Shown here: piece after piece, positions 35,380 to 56,213 of the stretch
Layout of the letters: each line of letters begins with the position of its first letter
How positions within the stretch are numbered: the stretch's first letter is position 1
Origin: Candidatus Fluviicola riflensis
GTDB lineage: Bacteria > Bacteroidota > Bacteroidia > Flavobacteriales_D > Crocinitomicaceae
Direction of reading: 5' to 3'
DNA: 64,000 nucleotides
Assembly: GCA_002243285.1 (NCBI GenBank)
Contig: CP022585.1
Span: 2,158,641-2,222,640, forward strand
Position numbers and translations under genes: made by a program
Notes under the pieces: generated by a model
The model's input: the letters and a program-made list of their open reading frames with translations, nothing else
What the model was told of the DNA's origin: nothing
Database searches by the model: none

Positions 35380-35490
35380 TCCCACAGATGCGCAGATTCG
35401 GCTCTCAGCCTTAGGCTGACTCGCTTAAATAATTAAAAACCTGAATATGCGCTACCGTTAGGAGCGCAAAAAATCTGCGCATCTGTGGGA
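35380..35490. repeat. Palindromic element, terminal type A, copy 1
   Basis: Perfect 19-base terminal inverted repeats (TCCCACAGATGCGCAGATT, 35380-35398; complement 35472-35490). The interior holds a TCAGCC/GGCTGA hairpin and a CCGTTAGGAGCGC module. The gap 35301-35637 holds no gene otherwise. Confidence 0.85.
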
Positions 35491-35612
35491 ATCTTTTTGA
35501 ATCTATTCCGACATGGACTAAGAGCGAAATCCATCCATCTGTGGTAAAAGTAACGAAGGACAAATGCCGTATTTTCTATTGGTAACACTCCTGCGTTATG
35601 GGCTTTATTTTC

Positions 35613-38487: not shown

Positions 38488-38581
38488 TTTTCTAATTACA
38501 TCTTGTACAAGAGTTTCGCTTTCCCGCGAATACATAGATTATTTTGCTCTACGCCTGTGGCGTAATCACTGCAAAAGATTA

Positions 38582-38674
38582 CCACGAATGCACTAATTTT
38601 TGCTCGGCTAACGCCCTCGCCGATAACTAATTAAAGCGCGTCCGTTAGGCGCGCCATAATTCGTGCATTCGTGG
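38582..38674. repeat. Palindromic element, terminal type B, copy 1
   Basis: Arms 38582-38598 (CCACGAATGCACTAATT) and 38658-38674 pair with one mismatch. The interior holds GCTCGGCTAACGC and CCGTTAGGCGCGCC modules. Upstream, at 38550-38564, is a TACGCC/GGCGTA hairpin. No gene in 38488-38771. Confidence 0.75.
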
Positions 38675-38771
38675 GAAAAGAAAACCCATCCGCCATGGTG
38701 GATGCAACGTCATTTGTGGGAGACCATGTACAAGACAGCATTATTCCATTTATTTAATTTTTATTTCGAAT

Positions 38772-43416: not shown

Positions 43417-43431
43417 GTGTATCAAAAATAA

Positions 43432-43571
43432 TTCCCACGAATGCACGAATTTTTGCTCGGCTAACGCACTCGCTTTTTTTAAAATATTATACACAATTCG
43501 TCAGAGTGTAATTGTCTAACACACCATTAGCGCTGCCGTTAGGAGCGCAAAAATTCGTGCATTCGTGGGAA
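43432..43571. repeat. Palindromic element, terminal type B, copy 2
   Basis: Perfect 25-base arms 43432-43456 and 43547-43571 (TTCCCACGAATGCACGAATT plus TTTGC). The interior has GCTCGGCTAACGC near the left arm and GCGCTGCCGTTAGGAGCGC near the right. It lies between the two tandem paralogues. Confidence 0.85.
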
Positions 43572-43697
43572 AGAAAAATGTCGTATCGGCTAGTCGATAC
43601 TCTCCTTTTTGGAATTAAAATTGGGAAATGGATAGTAACTGAAAGAAAAAACCTATTTTAATCGCTTCAACCAGTACAATAACAAAAAACAACATTT

Positions 43698-44378: not shown

Positions 44379-44401
44379 GGTTGTGCATTGCAAAAAACGT
44401 C

Positions 44402-44537
44402 TCCCACAGATGCGCAGATTTTCGCGCTCCTAACGGCAGCGCTAATGATATTCGTACCATTCCAATAATAGACTTGTATCATTAAAAATGTGCGAGTCAG
44501 CCTTAGGCTGAGAGCTGTAATCTGCTCATCTGTGGGA
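44402..44537. repeat. Palindromic element, terminal type A, copy 2
   Basis: Arms 44402-44420 (same 19 bases as the copy at 35380) and 44519-44537 with one mismatch. Interior modules CGCTCCTAACGGCAGCGC and GTCAGCCTTAGGCTGA are those of the 35380 copy but in the opposite order and orientation, so the whole element is inverted. Confidence 0.85.
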
Positions 44538-50251: not shown

Positions 50252-50515
50252 CTTCTTTTTGTCTTGATAAGAGCAAGCACTACTTGTGAAGACGACTTGT
50301 CGTCCGCGGTTGGCGGACGTAACAAGGAGGTAAAGAAGCAAAAAGGTCAAGGCTGTACGTCCTTCGCTTGAGAACTAAACGGCATTCCACTACCTGCACC
50401 CCAACTCGTATACGTCATTAACGAATTCTTTTACAAAGAATCCGATGACTGAACTCAAACAGGGGTTCGGTAACGTTCTATTTCGCTTGTTCTCTTACGC
50501 TGCGGACGTAATGCC
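50252..50515. repeat. Dispersed structured repeat, copy A
   Basis: A ~170-base core (50347-50515) matches 55683-55851 at most positions: CAAGGCTGTA.GTCC, CTTGAGAAC, CCCAACTCG, ACGTCATT.ACG, TTTTACAAA, AATCCGATGACTG, CTCAAACAGGG, GTTCTCTT and TAATGCC. Before the core is TTTTTGTCTTGATAA; here an extra GTCCGC/GCGGAC hairpin separates it from the core. No gene in 50246-50660. Confidence 0.8.
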
Positions 50516-50660
50516 TAAAGCCTCCTCAAGAAAGAGCTTCTAAGTTTTTCTGACTTCGCTTCTGGAAATGGCGTATGGTCCGTACTAAGAATTAAGTATC
50601 CGTAAAATCAGATTACACTAACGAATACATGAACTTAAAAACATGTCTTATAGAATGTAT

Positions 50661-51752
50661 TCAATAATCGAAAACATGTTCAACTTCATATCCATCTTCT
50701 TTTACCCTTAATAACAAACGGTGCAGGTCCTTTATTTGTACAGCTAATAGAATCCGTTTCTTTTTCGGATCAGAAGGGATCGGTTGAGAGAAAATATTTT
50801 CAGTGTATGCAGTTGAAAAAAACTTATTTGAAGGTACCTTTAACGACACGAATATTGCGGTATTATTTCCCGCTATTTCCTCAAAGGTCAATCCATCCTT
50901 TGCCAACTGATCAATTTCTGTATTAAACCGCGCATAACGATTCAGTTGAAGAAGTGCACTTTTATCAGGATACATTTCTATAACGGTGTATTTTTTTTGA
51001 CTCTTTTTTGGAAGTGATTTCACCAAAACCACTGTATGAGTATCGTCCGGACCATGCATGCTCTCTGCCCCCATTTTAATCAAATTTCCATAGCCCCATT
51101 TGACGATCAATTCAGAGGTGAGGTAGTACTTCCGTTCCATTTTTCGTAGAAAATGACCGTCAAACAAAGAGGTCTCAGTCCAAAGTCTTTTCAACCGGTC
51201 TTTGAAATCAAATTCATACCAGAAATTATCGTTGATGAACGTCACATAGTCCTGTGTGTATTGTGCGGTAAATTTATCTTCATCTGTTTCTACTGTTTTG
51301 GTGTCTGTAAGCCTCCCCACAACACGTTCATACCAAGCTTTTGTTATGTATTCGGCAGAAGAACTTGAATTAATGACATTAATCATCAGCTGATACTCTC
51401 CGTTGTGCTTGTATTTTGTGTGATTCGTATCGGTGTAGACTTTTACAATTTTATGAATATCCCAGATTTGAGCATTTTGTTTCATATAAGGAAAAGAAGT
51501 GGCTGTGGTATGCGCAAAGTAATCAGCTTGTTCTTTGGGACTGAACACCAAATACCACTCCGGAACACTTAGAATTGCCTGATCCACTCGCCTCCTGTAT
51601 CTGGAAGGTGTTTGCGGGTTTTCATTCTTCGTTGTCCATTCCTCCGGAATCAGCATACCTTCTGCTTCCACATAGGTATTTGGCTTTTGCAAATAAAATG
51701 TCAGCGTAGCCAATGAAGATGAAAGAACCGTAAATAACAACAAGCGTTTCAT
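50661..51752 (-). CDS. Unknown membrane-anchored/secreted protein
   Basis: 363 aa, N-terminal signal or anchor (MKRLLLFTVLSSSLATLTFYLQ). The mature part has mixed charged and aromatic helical segments (VPEWYLVFSPKEQADYF, FPYMKQNAQIWDIHKIVKVY, RKYYLTSELIVKWGYGNLIKMG). I recognise no family. Third gene of an operon with the methyltransferase (4 bases upstream) and the FAD oxidase. Confidence 0.75.
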   Translation of the reverse strand: MKRLLLFTVLSSSLATLTFYLQKPNTYVEAEGMLIPEEWTTKNENPQTPSRYRRRVDQAILSVPEWYLVFSPKEQADYFAHTTATSFPYMKQNAQIWDIHKIVKVYTDTNHTKYKHNGEYQLMINVINSSSSAEYITKAWYERVVGRLTDTKTVETDEDKFTAQYTQDYVTFINDNFWYEFDFKDRLKRLWTETSLFDGHFLRKMERKYYLTSELIVKWGYGNLIKMGAESMHGPDDTHTVVLVKSLPKKSQKKYTVIEMYPDKSALLQLNRYARFNTEIDQLAKDGLTFEEIAGNNTAIFVSLKVPSNKFFSTAYTENIFSQPIPSDPKKKRILLAVQIKDLHRLLLRVKEDGYEVEHVFDY

Positions 51753-51756
51753 AAGC

Positions 51757-52611
51757 TTAGTTTTTAGTAAATGCCAGCAAAGTATTGAGCGACGGATCGT
51801 TTAATTGTAAAATCCGGAAATTTAAATCCTTAAAACCCGCATTTTCAATTAATTCCACCCATTCTTTTACCGAATGGAAAGAACGGTATTCCGATTCGTT
51901 TTTCGCCCAGGACTCATGCAATCCAAGGTTAAAAACAGTATGAACCAATGATACAAAAACACGCATTTCTTCCGAATTCACATCATGATCACGAACAACA
52001 AAAAGTCCTCCCGGTTTGAGAACGCGCCTGATCGATTGCATAAAGTCAGTCAGCAACTCTGCCGGACAATGATGTAACCCTATATGGCAAGTAATGAGGT
52101 CGAGACTGCTATCCGGGATCTGATTCGGGATCGGTTTATAATCGAGGTGATAAAAAGTTCCGATCTTCCCGATTTTTCCCCGTTCCATAATATCAGTAAT
52201 CCCATTATTCGGTGCCACATCATTCATTAGATAAACAGGTGCATTGACTGGGATGTGTTTTTTTAATTCACTGATGTATCTTCCGGTGGAACCGATTTCA
52301 AGGTATCCGTTTATTTCTTTGCGGCCGTTCAGAACAGAAAGTACCTGATTTGCCATTTCTTTTTTCTGTTTTTTCAATGCCGGTAAAGCATACGTCAAAG
52401 CCGAAAGAAAAGGTGAAATGCTTTTTAACTCTTTTTGAACAGCTTCATAAATTTCCCTGTCTGTAGTTAATTGAGTGGTTTTTTCTGCAAGCAGGTGATG
52501 AAATTTATCTTCCGGGTACAAATGAAATATTCCTTGAAGAAACTTATAAAAATTGTCACTCCATCTGATGTCGGAGAAAACGGATTTGAACTCGGATTGG
52601 GGCTTATTCAT
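51757..52611 (-). CDS. Class I SAM-dependent methyltransferase
   Basis: 284 aa. A poorly conserved motif I (YLEIGSTGRYISELK), LDLITCHIGLHHCPAELLTDFMQSIRRVLKPGGLFVVRDHD in the middle, C-terminal helical part. 8-base overlap with the oxidase gene, so translated together. The substrate is probably the oxidase product or a lipid; not determinable. Confidence 0.85.
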   Translation of the reverse strand: MNKPQSEFKSVFSDIRWSDNFYKFLQGIFHLYPEDKFHHLLAEKTTQLTTDREIYEAVQKELKSISPFLSALTYALPALKKQKKEMANQVLSVLNGRKEINGYLEIGSTGRYISELKKHIPVNAPVYLMNDVAPNNGITDIMERGKIGKIGTFYHLDYKPIPNQIPDSSLDLITCHIGLHHCPAELLTDFMQSIRRVLKPGGLFVVRDHDVNSEEMRVFVSLVHTVFNLGLHESWAKNESEYRSFHSVKEWVELIENAGFKDLNFRILQLNDPSLNTLLAFTKN

Positions 52612-54355
52612 AAGAGGCTGTTGGATTATAGTATTTTTCCCATAGGGAATTTCTGAATTTATAATTCGGATCTACCTGTTGTTTCAAGCGGAATAGTTTT
52701 TTAGCATGTGGATAAGCTCTGTGAAACTGAGCTTCTGTTGCATGAAGCTGATAAGGCAAATAATAAGATCCGTCGGAATCCAAGACCGTATCCGTGAGTT
52801 CACGCGTCCAGATTCCTACGGTATTCTTGGCTTTTTCGTTCGTACTTTGCTTGTACCAGATAACAAAGGCAAATACTTCCCCCTCACTCCAACTGAGCAA
52901 TGATTCCCGGTTTTGAATGGCATGACGAATTGATACATTAATCACATTCACCTTATATCGACGGAAAATCTCTGCCATTTTAACAGAAAAATCATCAAAC
53001 TGATCAACAGGAACAAAATACTCTTGCAGAATATAGGAACTGTACTCCCGCGATGACGGTTCTAATTCAGCCAGATCATACCCGGCTTCGTAATTCCGCC
53101 AATGTACTTTTTTACGGCTATACAGGATCGGATCAATGATAAACTGCCTTCTCCATTTAGAAAAATTGCTCTTACTGAATGAACTGATAAAGAATCGTTC
53201 TACGGGATATTGTGAACGAAGTGTTATCAAACGTGATTTCTGAGTTGACTTCTTATTGGTTTTCTCCCAGGAAACGGCACGAATACGAGAAAAATCAGGT
53301 GGATAGAGATCTCCATTGTGAAAAATGACTTTTTCATTGTCACGGATATTCTTCCTAAAAAAATCCAGGTACTGATCCGTCCGCATCAGCTTCCATTTCC
53401 GTTCCAGTAATTCGTTCACAGTTAAGTCCAATTCCACAGCTACAATTACCGCAACTGCATTGTAGCATCCAATCACTGCTTCAAACAATTCCGGATGTTC
53501 TGTTCTTGAAACCGTTTTTAATTCTCCGTCGGCTGTAATAATATCCATTGAACGAACAGTCATTGCCAATGAACCGAAGCCAATGTATCTTCCGTGGCAA
53601 TTTACACTCACCGATCCACCAACCGTAAAATTTGCATATGATTGCATTACTTTGACACTCAAGTTTTTCGAATCAATGTATTTTTGAATATCACACCAAC
53701 GGATTCCCGCTTCTACTTTAATCACTTTCTCTTCCGGTGAAAATGAGAGCACACGGTTCATGGTTCTCATGTCGATATGAATTCCATAAGAACTAGCGGT
53801 ATGTCCACCCATGCTAAACCGACCTCCTCCAACAGAAATGTGTGTTGAAGTGTTTCGAATAATCTCCTGAACAGTTTCCACCGAATCGGGAACGAACACC
53901 TTCGAAACCAAAACAGGGTTTAACCTCGATACATCATTCACGATCTTCTCGCCTGTTTTTAAATGCTTAATGTACTCCGCATCCGGATTTTTGTAGTAAT
54001 CGGAAGCAAGATTCGGGCTGGGGCCAAACTTATTTCCCCTCTTTTTACCTCTTCCGAATCCAAGGATCAGAAATAGTGTCAGCGGGCCGAAAACAGGAAT
54101 CAGGATTAGCCAAAGCCAGTAACCAGACATGCCCACATCATGCAGACGCTTATTTGCTGTGCAAAACAAAGCCCAATACAACAAGGGGTACAAGATCCAT
54201 GTTGTGGTTTCGGAAAGGCCGTTTTGCAGTAAATTATACAAGGTATAAAAGGCGGTCCAAATAAATACCGAAGCCAGCCAATACGTCCGCCGGTTGATTC
54301 TTCCTCTTTGGGTGAAGAGCAAGTACGAAATGGGCAGTTGTTTTTGATAATTCAT
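52604..54355 (-). CDS. DUF805 membrane domain fused to FAD-linked oxidase
   Basis: 583 aa. N-terminal DUF805-like domain (about 13-110): RGRINRRTYWLASVFIW, NKRLHDVGMSGYWLW, typical of the small YhaH-type membrane proteins. From about 135 a VAO-type FAD domain follows (HISVGGGRFSMGGHTASSYGIHIDMR, SYANFTVGGSVSVNCHGRYIGFGSL), then a substrate-binding part and the D-arabinono-lactone-oxidase-like C-terminus (YPHAKKLFRLKQQVDPNYKFRN). No His-flavin attachment is obvious. Joining DUF805 to a VAO oxidase is not something I know as common. First gene of a three-gene unit. Confidence 0.85.
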   Translation of the reverse strand: MNYQKQLPISYLLFTQRGRINRRTYWLASVFIWTAFYTLYNLLQNGLSETTTWILYPLLYWALFCTANKRLHDVGMSGYWLWLILIPVFGPLTLFLILGFGRGKKRGNKFGPSPNLASDYYKNPDAEYIKHLKTGEKIVNDVSRLNPVLVSKVFVPDSVETVQEIIRNTSTHISVGGGRFSMGGHTASSYGIHIDMRTMNRVLSFSPEEKVIKVEAGIRWCDIQKYIDSKNLSVKVMQSYANFTVGGSVSVNCHGRYIGFGSLAMTVRSMDIITADGELKTVSRTEHPELFEAVIGCYNAVAVIVAVELDLTVNELLERKWKLMRTDQYLDFFRKNIRDNEKVIFHNGDLYPPDFSRIRAVSWEKTNKKSTQKSRLITLRSQYPVERFFISSFSKSNFSKWRRQFIIDPILYSRKKVHWRNYEAGYDLAELEPSSREYSSYILQEYFVPVDQFDDFSVKMAEIFRRYKVNVINVSIRHAIQNRESLLSWSEGEVFAFVIWYKQSTNEKAKNTVGIWTRELTDTVLDSDGSYYLPYQLHATEAQFHRAYPHAKKLFRLKQQVDPNYKFRNSLWEKYYNPTASYE

Positions 54356-54477
54356 ACCGGTGTTAAATGTACAAGAAATTCGGTTTGATGCTTCTTGTTG
54401 GATCCCTTATCCATACAAAAAAACGTAGTCTGCCAGTTTTAATACCATGGCAGTTTAATGAAATTCCCATTCCAACA

Positions 54478-54524
54478 AAAAAGGACGATCCATCTGCCTT
54501 AGGCTAACGGACCGTCCTTTTAAT
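54478..54524 (-). terminator. Terminator of the DUF1761 gene
   Basis: AAAAGGACGATCC / GGACCGTCCTTTT with one mismatch, loop containing GCCTTAGGC; T-run on the minus strand, 15 bases after the stop. Confidence 0.75.
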
Positions 54525-54538
54525 TTCATCGTTCCAGA

Positions 54539-54985
54539 TTATCCCATAAAAACAATGATAAACGAAACCACCAATAATGACAATAAGTGATACGATGTAT
54601 TGATCAGGAATAACTTCCATGATTTCATTTCCCATGAAACCGTGTTGAGGTCAACAGGAACGAAAAATCCGAGCCATGTAAATACCGCAGACATGGTGGC
54701 CATCAAAGCAGGTGTCATCATTTCAGAAGCCGGTTGGTTCCATGTTTCCGGATTCCATACGGCAATGTTATGTGCCAAAACCCAGGCCATCAGAAAATTT
54801 CCGACCACCATCAGGAACATACTTCTTACAAAAAAAGCAGTGGATGGTTTTTGATCGAGGTTCAGTCCCATTTCTCTGGCCCACACTTTTCCGAAAAGTG
54901 GTGTGTACCAAATAAAACCGAGAAAGAAATTTGCCACTACAGCAACGGCAATGGCGACGAAATTAATGTGAATGTTTGGTTCCAT
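54539..54985 (-). CDS. DUF1761 domain membrane protein, paralogue
   Basis: 148 aa, four TM helices; INFVAIAVAVVANFFLGFIWYTPLFGKVW is the DUF1761 signature. Paralogue of the gene at 28388. A small inverted repeat GTTTGA-CATA-TCAAAC (about 55003-55018) lies just upstream and might be an operator. Confidence 0.9.
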   Translation of the reverse strand: MEPNIHINFVAIAVAVVANFFLGFIWYTPLFGKVWAREMGLNLDQKPSTAFFVRSMFLMVVGNFLMAWVLAHNIAVWNPETWNQPASEMMTPALMATMSAVFTWLGFFVPVDLNTVSWEMKSWKLFLINTSYHLLSLLVVSFIIVFMG

Positions 54986-55102
54986 ACTAGTATTTTTTTA
55001 ATGTTTGACATATCAAACGAAAAAGCCGGAAGAAGGTTTCGAATAATCAATACAACGTTGTTTTTCTATCGATTTAAGTCTAATTCGTTGAAATTCAAGC
55101 AC

Positions 55103-55134
55103 AAAAAAAAGCCCTGAGTTATCTTCAGAGCTTT
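55103..55134 (-). terminator. Terminator of the VOC gene
   Basis: AAAGCCCTGA / TCAGAGCTTT stem (one mismatch) with a run of eight T on the minus strand, 22 bases past the stop. Confidence 0.75.
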
Positions 55135-55155
55135 CAAATCGGTTTTTTTCGAAAT

Positions 55156-55524
55156 TTAATTCATCGAATGCAAGGCCAGTTTATTCCCTTCCGTATCAAT
55201 GAAATGTGCCATGAATCCATTACTACCAATAGAAGTTTTCGGCATCAGTACTTTACCACCGGCAGCTTCAATCCTTGAAAGCGGTCCGCTCAAATCATCA
55301 CCACCATTGAGATAAATCACGGGTCCGGTCATTGAAGGTTCAAATCCTTCGCCCTGAACAATTCCGCCACCCACTCCATTTTGCATGTCGCACGGAAGAA
55401 TTCCGTATTTGTAGTCAGGATGCGGCATTTCCTGGATCTCCGCATCGAAAAGCTTTCCGTAAAATGCTTTCGCTCTGTCGAAATCTTTGACTGGAATTTC
55501 GAACCAGTTAATTGAATTGATCAT
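55156..55524 (-). CDS. VOC family protein (glyoxalase-like)
   Basis: 122 aa, one VOC fold with two beta-alpha-beta-beta-beta units: INWFEIPVKDFDRAKAFYGKLF and the C-terminal IGSNGFMAHFIDTEGNKLALHS. Metal ligands would be a His/Glu pair, but the first unit lacks the usual His, so catalytic activity is uncertain. Confidence 0.9.
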   Translation of the reverse strand: MINSINWFEIPVKDFDRAKAFYGKLFDAEIQEMPHPDYKYGILPCDMQNGVGGGIVQGEGFEPSMTGPVIYLNGGDDLSGPLSRIEAAGGKVLMPKTSIGSNGFMAHFIDTEGNKLALHSMN

Positions 55525-55634
55525 ATAATTGTGTTATTTGGTTTTCTTCTTGTAATCTTACTTTCCCAAGTTTGATCCTAATCCAAACCGTAGAAAAATA
55601 TTCTTTTGTGCTAATAAAAGACAGGTGTAAATCT

Positions 55635-55851
55635 GATAAATCTATCCTACTTTTTTCTTGATAAAAAAGTAGGATAGATTTATCAAGGCTGTAAGTCCCA
55701 ATCTTGAGAACCACGGCTTGTTTTGCTACCTCAGCCCAACTCGCAAAACGTCATTGACGGCTTGTTTTACAAACAATCCGATGACTGTGCTCAAACAGGG
55801 CATCGGTTACGCATAACGCACCTCGTTCTCTTGCGATTGTTACTTAATGCC
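55635..55851. repeat. Dispersed structured repeat, copy B
   Basis: Starts with a perfect 22-base-arm hairpin (55635-55656 / 55663-55684, loop CTTGAT) and continues as the ~170-base core shared with copy A. No gene in 55525-55865. Confidence 0.85.
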
Positions 55852-55865
55852 ATTCGAAGACCCCA

Positions 55866-56213
55866 CTATTTGGTTTTCTTCTTTTTGGAGGCTTTTGCTT
55901 TGCTGTTAAATTCCAGTGACAAATTGATCCAATAATCGAAATCGGCGGCATTTTTCATTCCCGTGTCGTCAATCAGCACATATCCTTTCATCGGACGATT
56001 GGTGAAATCCATTGTCCGGCAGCCTTGTTTCTCAACAGCAGCGGCATGAAAATCAGGATCAATGCGGCACATCAATTCATCTTTGATGATCCCGACGCAC
56101 ATTTTTCCATTGTACATGAAGGTCAATCCGCCCATCATGGATTTTTCCTCAATATTTTCCAGATTGGCCAGTCGTTCACGAATACGATCTGCCAGTTTTT
56201 CATCGTAAGCCAT
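55866..56213 (-). CDS. TfoX/Sxy family N-terminal domain protein
   Basis: 115 aa: EEKSMMGGLTFMYNGKMCVGIIKDELMCRIDP and CRTMDFTNRPMKGYVLID are the TfoX N-terminal core. In gamma-proteobacteria this domain belongs to the competence regulator; stand-alone copies elsewhere have no proven role. Lys-rich tail KASKKKKTK. Confidence 0.9.
   Translation of the reverse strand: MAYDEKLADRIRERLANLENIEEKSMMGGLTFMYNGKMCVGIIKDELMCRIDPDFHAAAVEKQGCRTMDFTNRPMKGYVLIDDTGMKNAADFDYWINLSLEFNSKAKASKKKKTK

Follow-up and report, generated by a model that had tools for sequence, protein, structure and literature searches.

A dispersed and almost certainly mobile structured element with a pseudoknotted 3' tail in Bacteroidota

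Two copies of a structured repeat in a 64,000-nucleotide stretch of Candidatus Fluviicola riflensis DNA (the window) are members of a family of structured elements that seems not to have been described before and is almost certainly mobile. The 169-nt cores, copy A at 50347..50515 and copy B at 55683..55851, lie on the minus strand and correspond to matches G000:C1:2208987-2209155:- and G000:C1:2214323-2214491:- of our covariance model R1, G000 being the window's own genome. We consider it most likely, at about even confidence, that the copies are a mobile, non-autonomous and non-coding element whose selected product is an RNA from the minus strand, and we lean somewhat towards RNA over single-stranded DNA as the active form. 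A sequence-only reading had marked the interval 50252-55851; its two ends are the repeat, and the remainder consists mostly of ordinary genes. The core coordinates and letters held on re-reading, a 23-letter core motif matched twice against 0 in 100 shuffles, and the ORF list, inspected by eye, contains no frame common to both cores, all of which agrees with that reading's proposal of a dispersed structured repeat under selection for pairing and without a protein product.

Across the 169-nt core the minus strand adopts a long, interrupted hairpin fold whose helices covary; in copy A the core runs 5' GGC...GCC and then UUGA 3'. Folding favours the minus over the plus strand in copy A (-63.8 versus -46.1 kcal/mol), in copy B (-62.8 versus -50.8 kcal/mol) and in 27/27 copies of the own genome, by a mean of 15 kcal/mol, and the paired cells, when read on the plus strand, show 32 A-C versus 11 G-U. 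Both cores had been called structured, and on the plus strand each copy has a more stable fold than any of its 200 dinucleotide shuffles (z -3.9 and -3.1). Across 22 own-genome copies we observed two-sided change in 25 of 48 pairs, with 130 such cells versus 43.8 in shuffles and a covariation score of 0.387 versus 0.187, a value reached by 0/500 shuffles; the signal collapses in slid-alignment controls. The pair swap noted earlier between ATTCTTT-TAC-AAAGAAT in copy A (50425..50441, minus strand) and TTGTTT-TAC-AAACAA in copy B (55762-55776) was confirmed, and this apical helix (helix 11) covaries in 22 copies; the copy A hairpin, being an inverted repeat, is pairable on either strand. The sequence-only reading had left itself open to contradiction by further copies that lack the pairing or by a shared ORF. 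It was not contradicted: pairing is intact in 95.9% of 1054 pair cells across the 22 own copies. An internal loop, CUGUUUGA...GAGUU, recurs in the core. Against the reading as a selected RNA, the change rates in 12 ortholog comparisons were similar at paired (22/1151) and unpaired (26/900) positions, no change was compensatory, and 14 of 20 changed pairs were non-standard in one copy or in both. Folded single-stranded DNA would likewise prefer one strand and tolerate G-T. An encoded peptide was rejected: by eye, a frame opened by ATG in some copies has ACG there, or is cut by a stop codon, in others.

The core is followed by a 3' tail that, on the minus strand, comprises CUUGAY, a U-run and a hairpin with the loop RUCAAG, the complement of CUUGAY. 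In tail class I, to which both window copies belong, it forms an H-type pseudoknot. The one variable pair, which joins the final base of CUUGAY to the initial base of RUCAAG, is T-A 56 times, C-G 27 times, T-G twice and C-A never, and is compatible in 85/85 distinct class I tails (83 Watson-Crick and 2 U-G, in rows that are non-independent), with the remaining five pseudoknot pairs fixed by the search pattern. Class II tails were rejected as the same pseudoknot: CUAGAC with loop GGCAAUG pairs only partially. The CTTGATAA stem previously described as preceding the cores is this 3' tail, because the fold is that of the minus strand. In copy A (tail at 50252..50346, minus strand) the tail hairpin is interrupted by an insert of ~63 nt (~50269-50331) that contains several small palindromes, and inserts of the same kind occur in L005, L012, L014, L018, L023 and L027. 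In copy B (tail at 55646..55687, minus strand) the CUUGAU segment occupies 55682-55687 and the hairpin consists of arms 55663-55673 and 55646-55656 around the loop 55657-55662, which reads AUCAAG on that strand. The extended copy B tail hairpin at 55634..55685 is a perfect palindrome, as had been reported, with arms of 23 rather than 22 bases; it is perfect because the U-rich linker has been overwritten by an inverted copy of its own flank, as also in copy L009, and is therefore atypical for the family.

On our preferred reading, copies would be transcribed from neighbouring promoters, and a DNA-level enzyme supplied elsewhere would move the element. A specific mechanism built on triplex formation and a ribonucleoprotein seems doubtful to us, and would run as follows. 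The U-rich linker would form a triple helix with the U/A stem, in whose groove it would lie, and so give a stable 3' end, the core with its recurring internal loop could bind a host protein, and the RNA might serve as a ribonucleoprotein scaffold, either at its own site or in trans. In telomerase- or ENE-type triple-helix pseudoknots a U-rich loop 1 faces an A/U-rich stem 2; the topology is alike, a resemblance only, and the present element has no telomerase or poly(A) context.

Where two copies had been noted, the 4.55-Mb own genome, which falls in one genus with Fluviicola, holds tens: 52 BLAST matches, several of which are fragments or reversed hairpin matches of one copy, and 33 matches to the covariance model whose construction had been suggested, with the window cores as 2 of these 33. 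Counts out of 27 refer to 30 BLAST loci minus the partial copies L016, L027 and L030 and exclude further places seen only with the covariance model, and the 22-row alignments exclude L007, L014, L018, L023 and L025, which have large inserts or replacements. The own-genome copies are dispersed over both strands; orientation with respect to replication was rejected as a rule, the RNA strand fitting a presumed terminus near 2.2 Mb in 23/33 copies (p 0.035). The element is patchy among relatives, with 16/80 family genomes carrying it (own included). A pattern search found the tail motif in 99/296 Bacteroidota genomes, a count that includes single chance matches, and a reversed-pattern control gave at most 2 matches per genome versus up to 48 for the true pattern. 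Models R1 and R2 matched 2/198 and 4/296 genomes (own included), which are lower bounds because these runs used stricter filters. Core and tail co-occur in G357, G137, G048 and G128, though R2 includes just 4 tail bases, and tails stand without an R2 core match in G108, G124, G089 and G093. The folded strand, the pseudoknot, the mobility and the phylum-wide spread all lie beyond what the sequence-only reading had described.

A wider reading, which we regard as improbable when taken as a whole, is that Bacteroidota carry modular mobile RNAs in which dissimilar cores share one 3' pseudoknot tag, CUUGAY-U(n)-hairpin-RUCAAG, that is read by one conserved host protein. The cores would be long GUUUGAG/GAGUU hairpins, a GACCUAGG type (G108) and a short AUUUGGCA type (G124 and G089), and the whole would amount to a phylum-wide ribonucleoprotein system written by mobile elements and partly kept by selection at the landing site. 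No Rfam 15 family gave a gathering-score match over the element; the over-threshold matches were tRNA, 5S and one SAM riboswitch, all away from it, and two sub-threshold matches overlap tails (E 1.7 and E 9.1). A literature search returned no description of the element. A phage or plasmid origin was rejected, with no phage match and nothing in viral contigs that fits the pattern exactly; a 50-nt match occurs in a single plasmid record (Aureibacter).

Evidence for mobility comes from presence/absence at six orthologous sites among relatives, the places with and without a copy being intergenic. The entire inserted segment of copy B, 315 bp at 55552..55866 (minus strand), is missing at the orthologous site of the congener G005; one G260 copy is lacking from three congeners, where the junction measures 23 nt, another G260 copy is lacking from them within a more rearranged stretch, and three further sites differ between G000 and G009, in both directions. 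Copy B is flanked by a 17-bp direct repeat, TATTTGGTTTTCTTCTT, a candidate target-site duplication with its left copy at 55535..55551 and its right copy at 55867..55883, within the 3' end of a small minus-strand gene (55866-56213), and ~82 nt of extra 3' sequence are present at this copy. Neither target duplication nor inverted flanks qualified as a general rule: such a duplication is clear in 1/27 own copies, and inverted flanks score >=10 in 1/74 copies versus 1.9 expected. Direct flank matches reach that score in 6 of 74 copies versus 2.0 expected, at loci that are AT-rich or tandem.

No enzyme tied to the element is found, and reading of flanks revealed no autonomous relative. The absence of an ORF and of a promoter, the patchy copy number, the insertion polymorphism and the preference for the minus strand would all suit a purely selfish miniature element that a trans-acting HUH (Y1/RAYT-like) enzyme mobilises in the form of folded single-stranded DNA, with the structure as the enzyme's recognition site and no host role for the copies. 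Y1_Tnp matches in 13/16 carrier genomes versus 37/64 non-carriers, and the single class I orthologous pair without constraint, point the same way. We nevertheless judge this explanation fairly unlikely, given that class II copies are constrained after insertion, that G271 (6 copies, 90% complete) has no Y1_Tnp match, and that the single 183-aa Y1_Tnp gene detected in the own genome adjoins a different palindrome and lies in 9 kb (L283) where R2 matches nothing at E<=1; in addition, a pseudoknot with a U-rich loop and an A/U stem is an RNA-type motif. Reverse transcription of the RNA and SINE-like insertion with long target duplications is highly improbable. A structured RNA, the 17-bp repeat and ~82-nt extra sequence of copy B and RVT_1 matches in 8/16 carriers versus 24/64 non-carriers would accord with such a retro-element, but RVT_1, the mark of the reverse transcriptase expected in a carrier, matches nowhere in the own genome (33 copies), G232 (11), G260 (11) or G271 (6), and a comparable duplication is present at none of the other 26 copies.

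Bearing on our preferred reading, a minus-strand RNA as the selected product, sequence divergence suggests that class II copies are very likely constrained in place. In seven orthologous pairs from six relatives, all of tail class II, 24/1193 core positions (2.0%) and 2/280 tail positions had changed, versus 173/2032 (8.5%) in the 3' flank and 298/1862 (16%) in the 5' flank, or 90/1298 (6.9%) in the 5' flank minus two pairs in which it is seemingly non-homologous; core divergence was below both flanks in 7/7 pairs. The sole testable class I pair, L087/L091, which lies outside the window's own genome, gave no sign of constraint (core 16/166, 9.6%, versus 3' flank 18/299, 6.0%), and the L087 tail is damaged. 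Since the seven constrained pairs are without exception class II and the class I pair shows the opposite, we put constraint on class I copies, the window's kind, at slightly below an even chance. The site shared by G000 and G009 (L011/L329) holds different subfamilies and was excluded from the divergence counts. The slow change of one copy class in relatives hints at RNA function. An Rfam-absent, transposon-like, many-copy structured family that is constrained in at least one class would be a large hidden non-coding class in a major environmental phylum, and it offers a way to test whether structured repeats that are dispersed in this manner, Flavo-1 for example, are selfish DNA or work as RNAs.

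The Flavo-1 RNA motif (Rfam RF01705) was reportedly described by Weinberg et al. in 2010. Its matches lie sense or antisense to transcripts, with many outside transcripts (PMC9723704). It resembles the present element as a dispersed, many-copy, structured motif of Flavobacteria whose function is not known, but its model has 76 positions and yields 0 matches at E<=1 in either the own genome or G009, and 100 in G081, where the present element sits at other coordinates; scans of the window and 12 element loci gave no gathering-score Flavo-1 match over the element. REP/REPIN sequences and their RAYT (TnpA-REP) are a further likeness, as short, dispersed, intergenic palindromic repeats thought to be mobilised in trans. 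REPs are given as 20-40 bp (PMC3733652) with a GT[AG]G foot (PMC6006769). The present element, at ~170-250 nt with a pseudoknot, has neither the 20-40 bp palindrome (judged by length and alignment) nor a GTAG/CGTC-type foot (by eye), and R2 found no copies flanking a RAYT gene in 9 kb at the own genome's locus. MITEs (ERIC, RUP and Correia-type) are small, non-coding, non-autonomous and insertion polymorphic. The element shares these features, including presence/absence at six sites, but unsystematic inspection turned up no paired terminal inverted repeats from a known transposon, its target duplication is clear once in 27 copies, and its interior is conserved.

Around the own-genome copies, crude ORF calling places the tail-side gene pointing towards the tail in 19/27 cases, two of which involve doubtful ORFs that overlap the element, and a co-directional gene ends <=110 nt upstream of the RNA in 11/27, as likewise at copy B. 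This arrangement would fit a 3'-end module that acts in cis on adjoining genes, either as a bidirectional terminator or by stabilising their mRNA, which we consider unlikely: gene orientation on the other side is mixed, no gene function recurs at every site among the neighbours examined, separate terminator-like hairpins already stand on the tail side of 5/27 copies, and no U-run follows the tail hairpin. A terminator beside every copy was rejected on that count of 5/27 intrinsic-terminator-like hairpins. Bacteroidota promoters have the consensus TAnnTTTG; it precedes 1/27 copies in sense and 1/27 in antisense, and an own promoter for the element was likewise rejected.

Some genomes hold same-strand clusters, with 9/9 model matches within 31 kb in G357, 6/6 within 2.8 kb in G137, and 19/19 tail matches, over several contigs, in G081. 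Such arrays could be integron-like recombination or cassette sites that shuffle polysaccharide genes, which is very improbable given that 30 array-neighbour proteins scanned (26 with Pfam matches and 4 without, covering part of the array ends) include no recognised integrase or transposase, that the intervening genes lie on both strands, and that the own-genome copies are scattered over both strands. The setting itself would suit cassette shuffling: the G357 and G137 arrays stand among glycosyltransferase, polysaccharide-export-type and nucleotide-sugar genes, and the G081 and G260 copies have, by eye, similar polysaccharide gene surroundings.

The repeat in the window is a structured Bacteroidota element that is mobile and non-coding and most likely acts as RNA. 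The sequence-only reading had proposed a dispersed structured repeat here, and it placed both cores correctly (copy A, 50347-50515; copy B, 55683-55851). The best-matching 64 bases of the two copies are 84% identical without a gap, the cores share a 23-letter motif that occurred 0 times in shuffles, and both fold more strongly than shuffled sequence, with ordinary genes filling the interval between them. Using copy B as a BLAST query, we obtained 52 matches in the own genome, Candidatus Fluviicola riflensis, of which the window spans positions 2158641-2222640; some of these matches are pieces of a single copy, while covariance model R1 located 33 places there.

To place the structure on a strand, we fetched 30 loci containing 27 complete copies and observed stronger folding of the window's minus strand in all 27, by a mean of 15 kcal/mol. 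Read on the plus strand, the pairs of these copies comprised 32 A-C cells and 11 G-U cells, an excess left as the residue of a minus-strand structure with wobble pairs. When the 22 copies free of large inserts were aligned, the 48 pairs were formed in 95.9% of cells and 25 of them underwent two-sided changes, which occupied 130 cells as opposed to 43.8 in shuffles. A control in which the partner column was shifted by 1-3 positions left only 28-43% of cells paired. Pairing was scored on the very rows from which the structure had been built, a bias in its favor that is too small to explain the gap between pairing and control.

Directly 3' of the closing stem lies CUUGAY, followed by a U-run and a U/A-rich hairpin, usually with 10-11 bp; the six bases in the loop of this hairpin, RUCAAG, complement CUUGAY. 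We collected 85 distinct tails of this class I type by the CUUGAY/RUCAAG pattern and a minimum hairpin length of 6 bp; five pseudoknot pairs are fixed by that search pattern, and the single free pair was T-A in 56, C-G in 27, T-G in 2 and C-A in 0 (Fisher p 4e-20, for rows related by descent). The class I tail is an H-type pseudoknot. Telomerase-type triple helices have a U-rich loop 1 facing a U/A stem, and by analogy with this topology, which the tail reproduces, a triple helix may form here as well. One genus of the family commonly has a class II tail (CUAGAC, loop GGCAAUG); we rejected it as the same pseudoknot, as its pairing is not like that of class I.

Several copies carry rearranged tails or loops. 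In copy B and one further copy (L009), the U-rich linker is replaced by the inverse of flanking sequence, which produces the long perfect palindrome pointed out by the sequence-only reading and suggests that a template switch occurred at a hairpin. Copy A and six other own copies (L005, L012, L014, L018, L023 and L027) contain, at the same insertion point, a 60-odd-nt insert with many small palindromes that splits the tail hairpin and whose end resembles ACAAGGAGGTA; in copy A the insert occupies window positions 50269-50331. Short palindromes, TCCGCCTNAGGCGGA and CCCGATAGCTATCGGGA, replace or fill the element's loops (cores of L004, L012, L023 and L026; also the flank from the compared genome G005 in L102, and L071:2361), as if tiny palindromes inserted into hairpin loops.

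Presence and absence of copies document the mobility. Copy B is missing from G005, where its two neighbor genes adjoin, and in the window it forms a 315-bp insert flanked on either side by the same 17-bp sequence (highest control score 13 among 702 mismatched comparisons); no comparable direct repeat was found at the other 26 own copies. One copy in genome G260 is missing from G211, G232 and G271, with a junction of 23 nt, as is a second, nearby copy in a more rearranged stretch. Comparison of the own genome with G009, which belongs to its genus along with G008 and G012, revealed three more such sites, in both directions, and one place where the two genomes hold copies of different subfamilies (L011/L329). 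Clustered copies elsewhere all share a strand (9 of 9 within a 31-kb stretch; 6 of 6 within 2.8 kb), and three stand in tandem at L086 6875-7474, spaced about 217 bp, their cores differing from one another at 5-10 of 166 sites. Own copies L010, L011 and L017 and G009 copies L326 and L327 have some 230-250 nt of extra 5' sequence (RNA sense) in common, as if they were part of a longer composite repeat.

We then compared seven orthologous filled sites from six relatives, all with class II tails, for constraint after insertion. Differences amounted to 24/1193 positions in the core and 2/280 in the tail, and over the next 300 bases to 173/2032 in the 3' flank and 298/1862 in the 5' flank (90/1298 once two pairs with a non-homologous-looking 5' side are left out), with the core differing less than both flanks at 7 of 7 sites. 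Paralogues within one genome differ far more than orthologous copies, and the expected effect of gene conversion is therefore to increase these differences rather than reduce them. The four genus-g104 MAGs appear to be different isolates (CAMAXI, CANFHU, CALPMT and CANHRS), making a shared mis-assembly unlikely. Events are few, and other observations lower the odds of constraint: the sole testable orthologous pair of class I, to which the window's own copies belong, exhibits none (L087/L091: core 16/166, 3' flank 18/299, with the L087 tail damaged); 12 class II comparisons yielded no compensatory change; and in 14 of the 20 changed pairs in those comparisons one copy is without a standard pair.

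The element contains no ORF, which rules out a mover encoded within it. Its neighbors are ordinary genes, including polysaccharide genes in G357 and G137, and among the 26 of 30 scanned neighbor proteins with Pfam matches there was no recombinase. RVT_1 matched nothing in the own genome, nor in three other multi-copy genomes, and a reverse transcriptase is not required at present. The own genome's sole RAYT-like Y1 transposase gene (L283 4061-4612) had no match to the broader covariance model R2 within the surrounding 9 kb, and a genome that is 90% complete and carries six element copies yielded no such protein. The GGCACGAGCGAGACGCTCGCGCC palindrome directly after this gene is possibly the gene's own REP. 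Neither Rfam 15 nor the literature searched held a family or description of the element; Flavo-1, likewise a dispersed structured repeat, is the nearest known, and membership tests placed the element outside both Flavo-1 and REP/RAYT. Genome G081, which also carries copies of the element, has 100 Flavo-1 RNA motif matches at E<=1, most above the cut-off.

With the own genome counted in throughout, BLAST with copy B found carriers in 5 of 14 genus genomes, and R1 in 16 of 80 family genomes (8 of 24 genera), at no more than 11 copies per family genome outside the own, and in 2 of 198 genomes of the phylum sample. R2 matched 4 of 296 genomes, one outside the class. The tail pattern alone occurred in 99 of 296 Bacteroidota genomes and 55 of 140 genera, where single matches may be chance, reaching 48 matches per genome versus at most 2 for the reversed control. 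R2 cores, from a model with only four tail bases, end at the tail in G357, G137, G048 and G128; at the tails of G108, G124, G089 and G093, R2 found no core match, and the upstream sequence looks different. At L256, L257, L252 and L253, upstream parts without an R2 match run into the CUUGAY...RUCAAG tail as well, pointing to a modular 3' tag. Viral contigs, scanned for the exact pattern, and phages contained no match to the element, and the plasmids searched gave one partial match. A pattern scan of genome contigs returned 59 loci, including Fluviicola, Lishizhenia tianjinensis and Crocinitomicaceae MAGs, with some MAG names that do not suit their placement (contigs of G211 and G232, both from the family, bear the titles Chryseobacterium and Chitinophaga).

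The window also holds a second dispersed repeat family, whose copies are 27-50 nt long, occur in inverted as well as direct orientation and are built around GCTCGGCTAACG / CGTTAGGAGCGC with CCCACGAATGCACGAATTTT-like arms, at 38573-38684, 43426-43578, 44395-44537 and 35449-35498.
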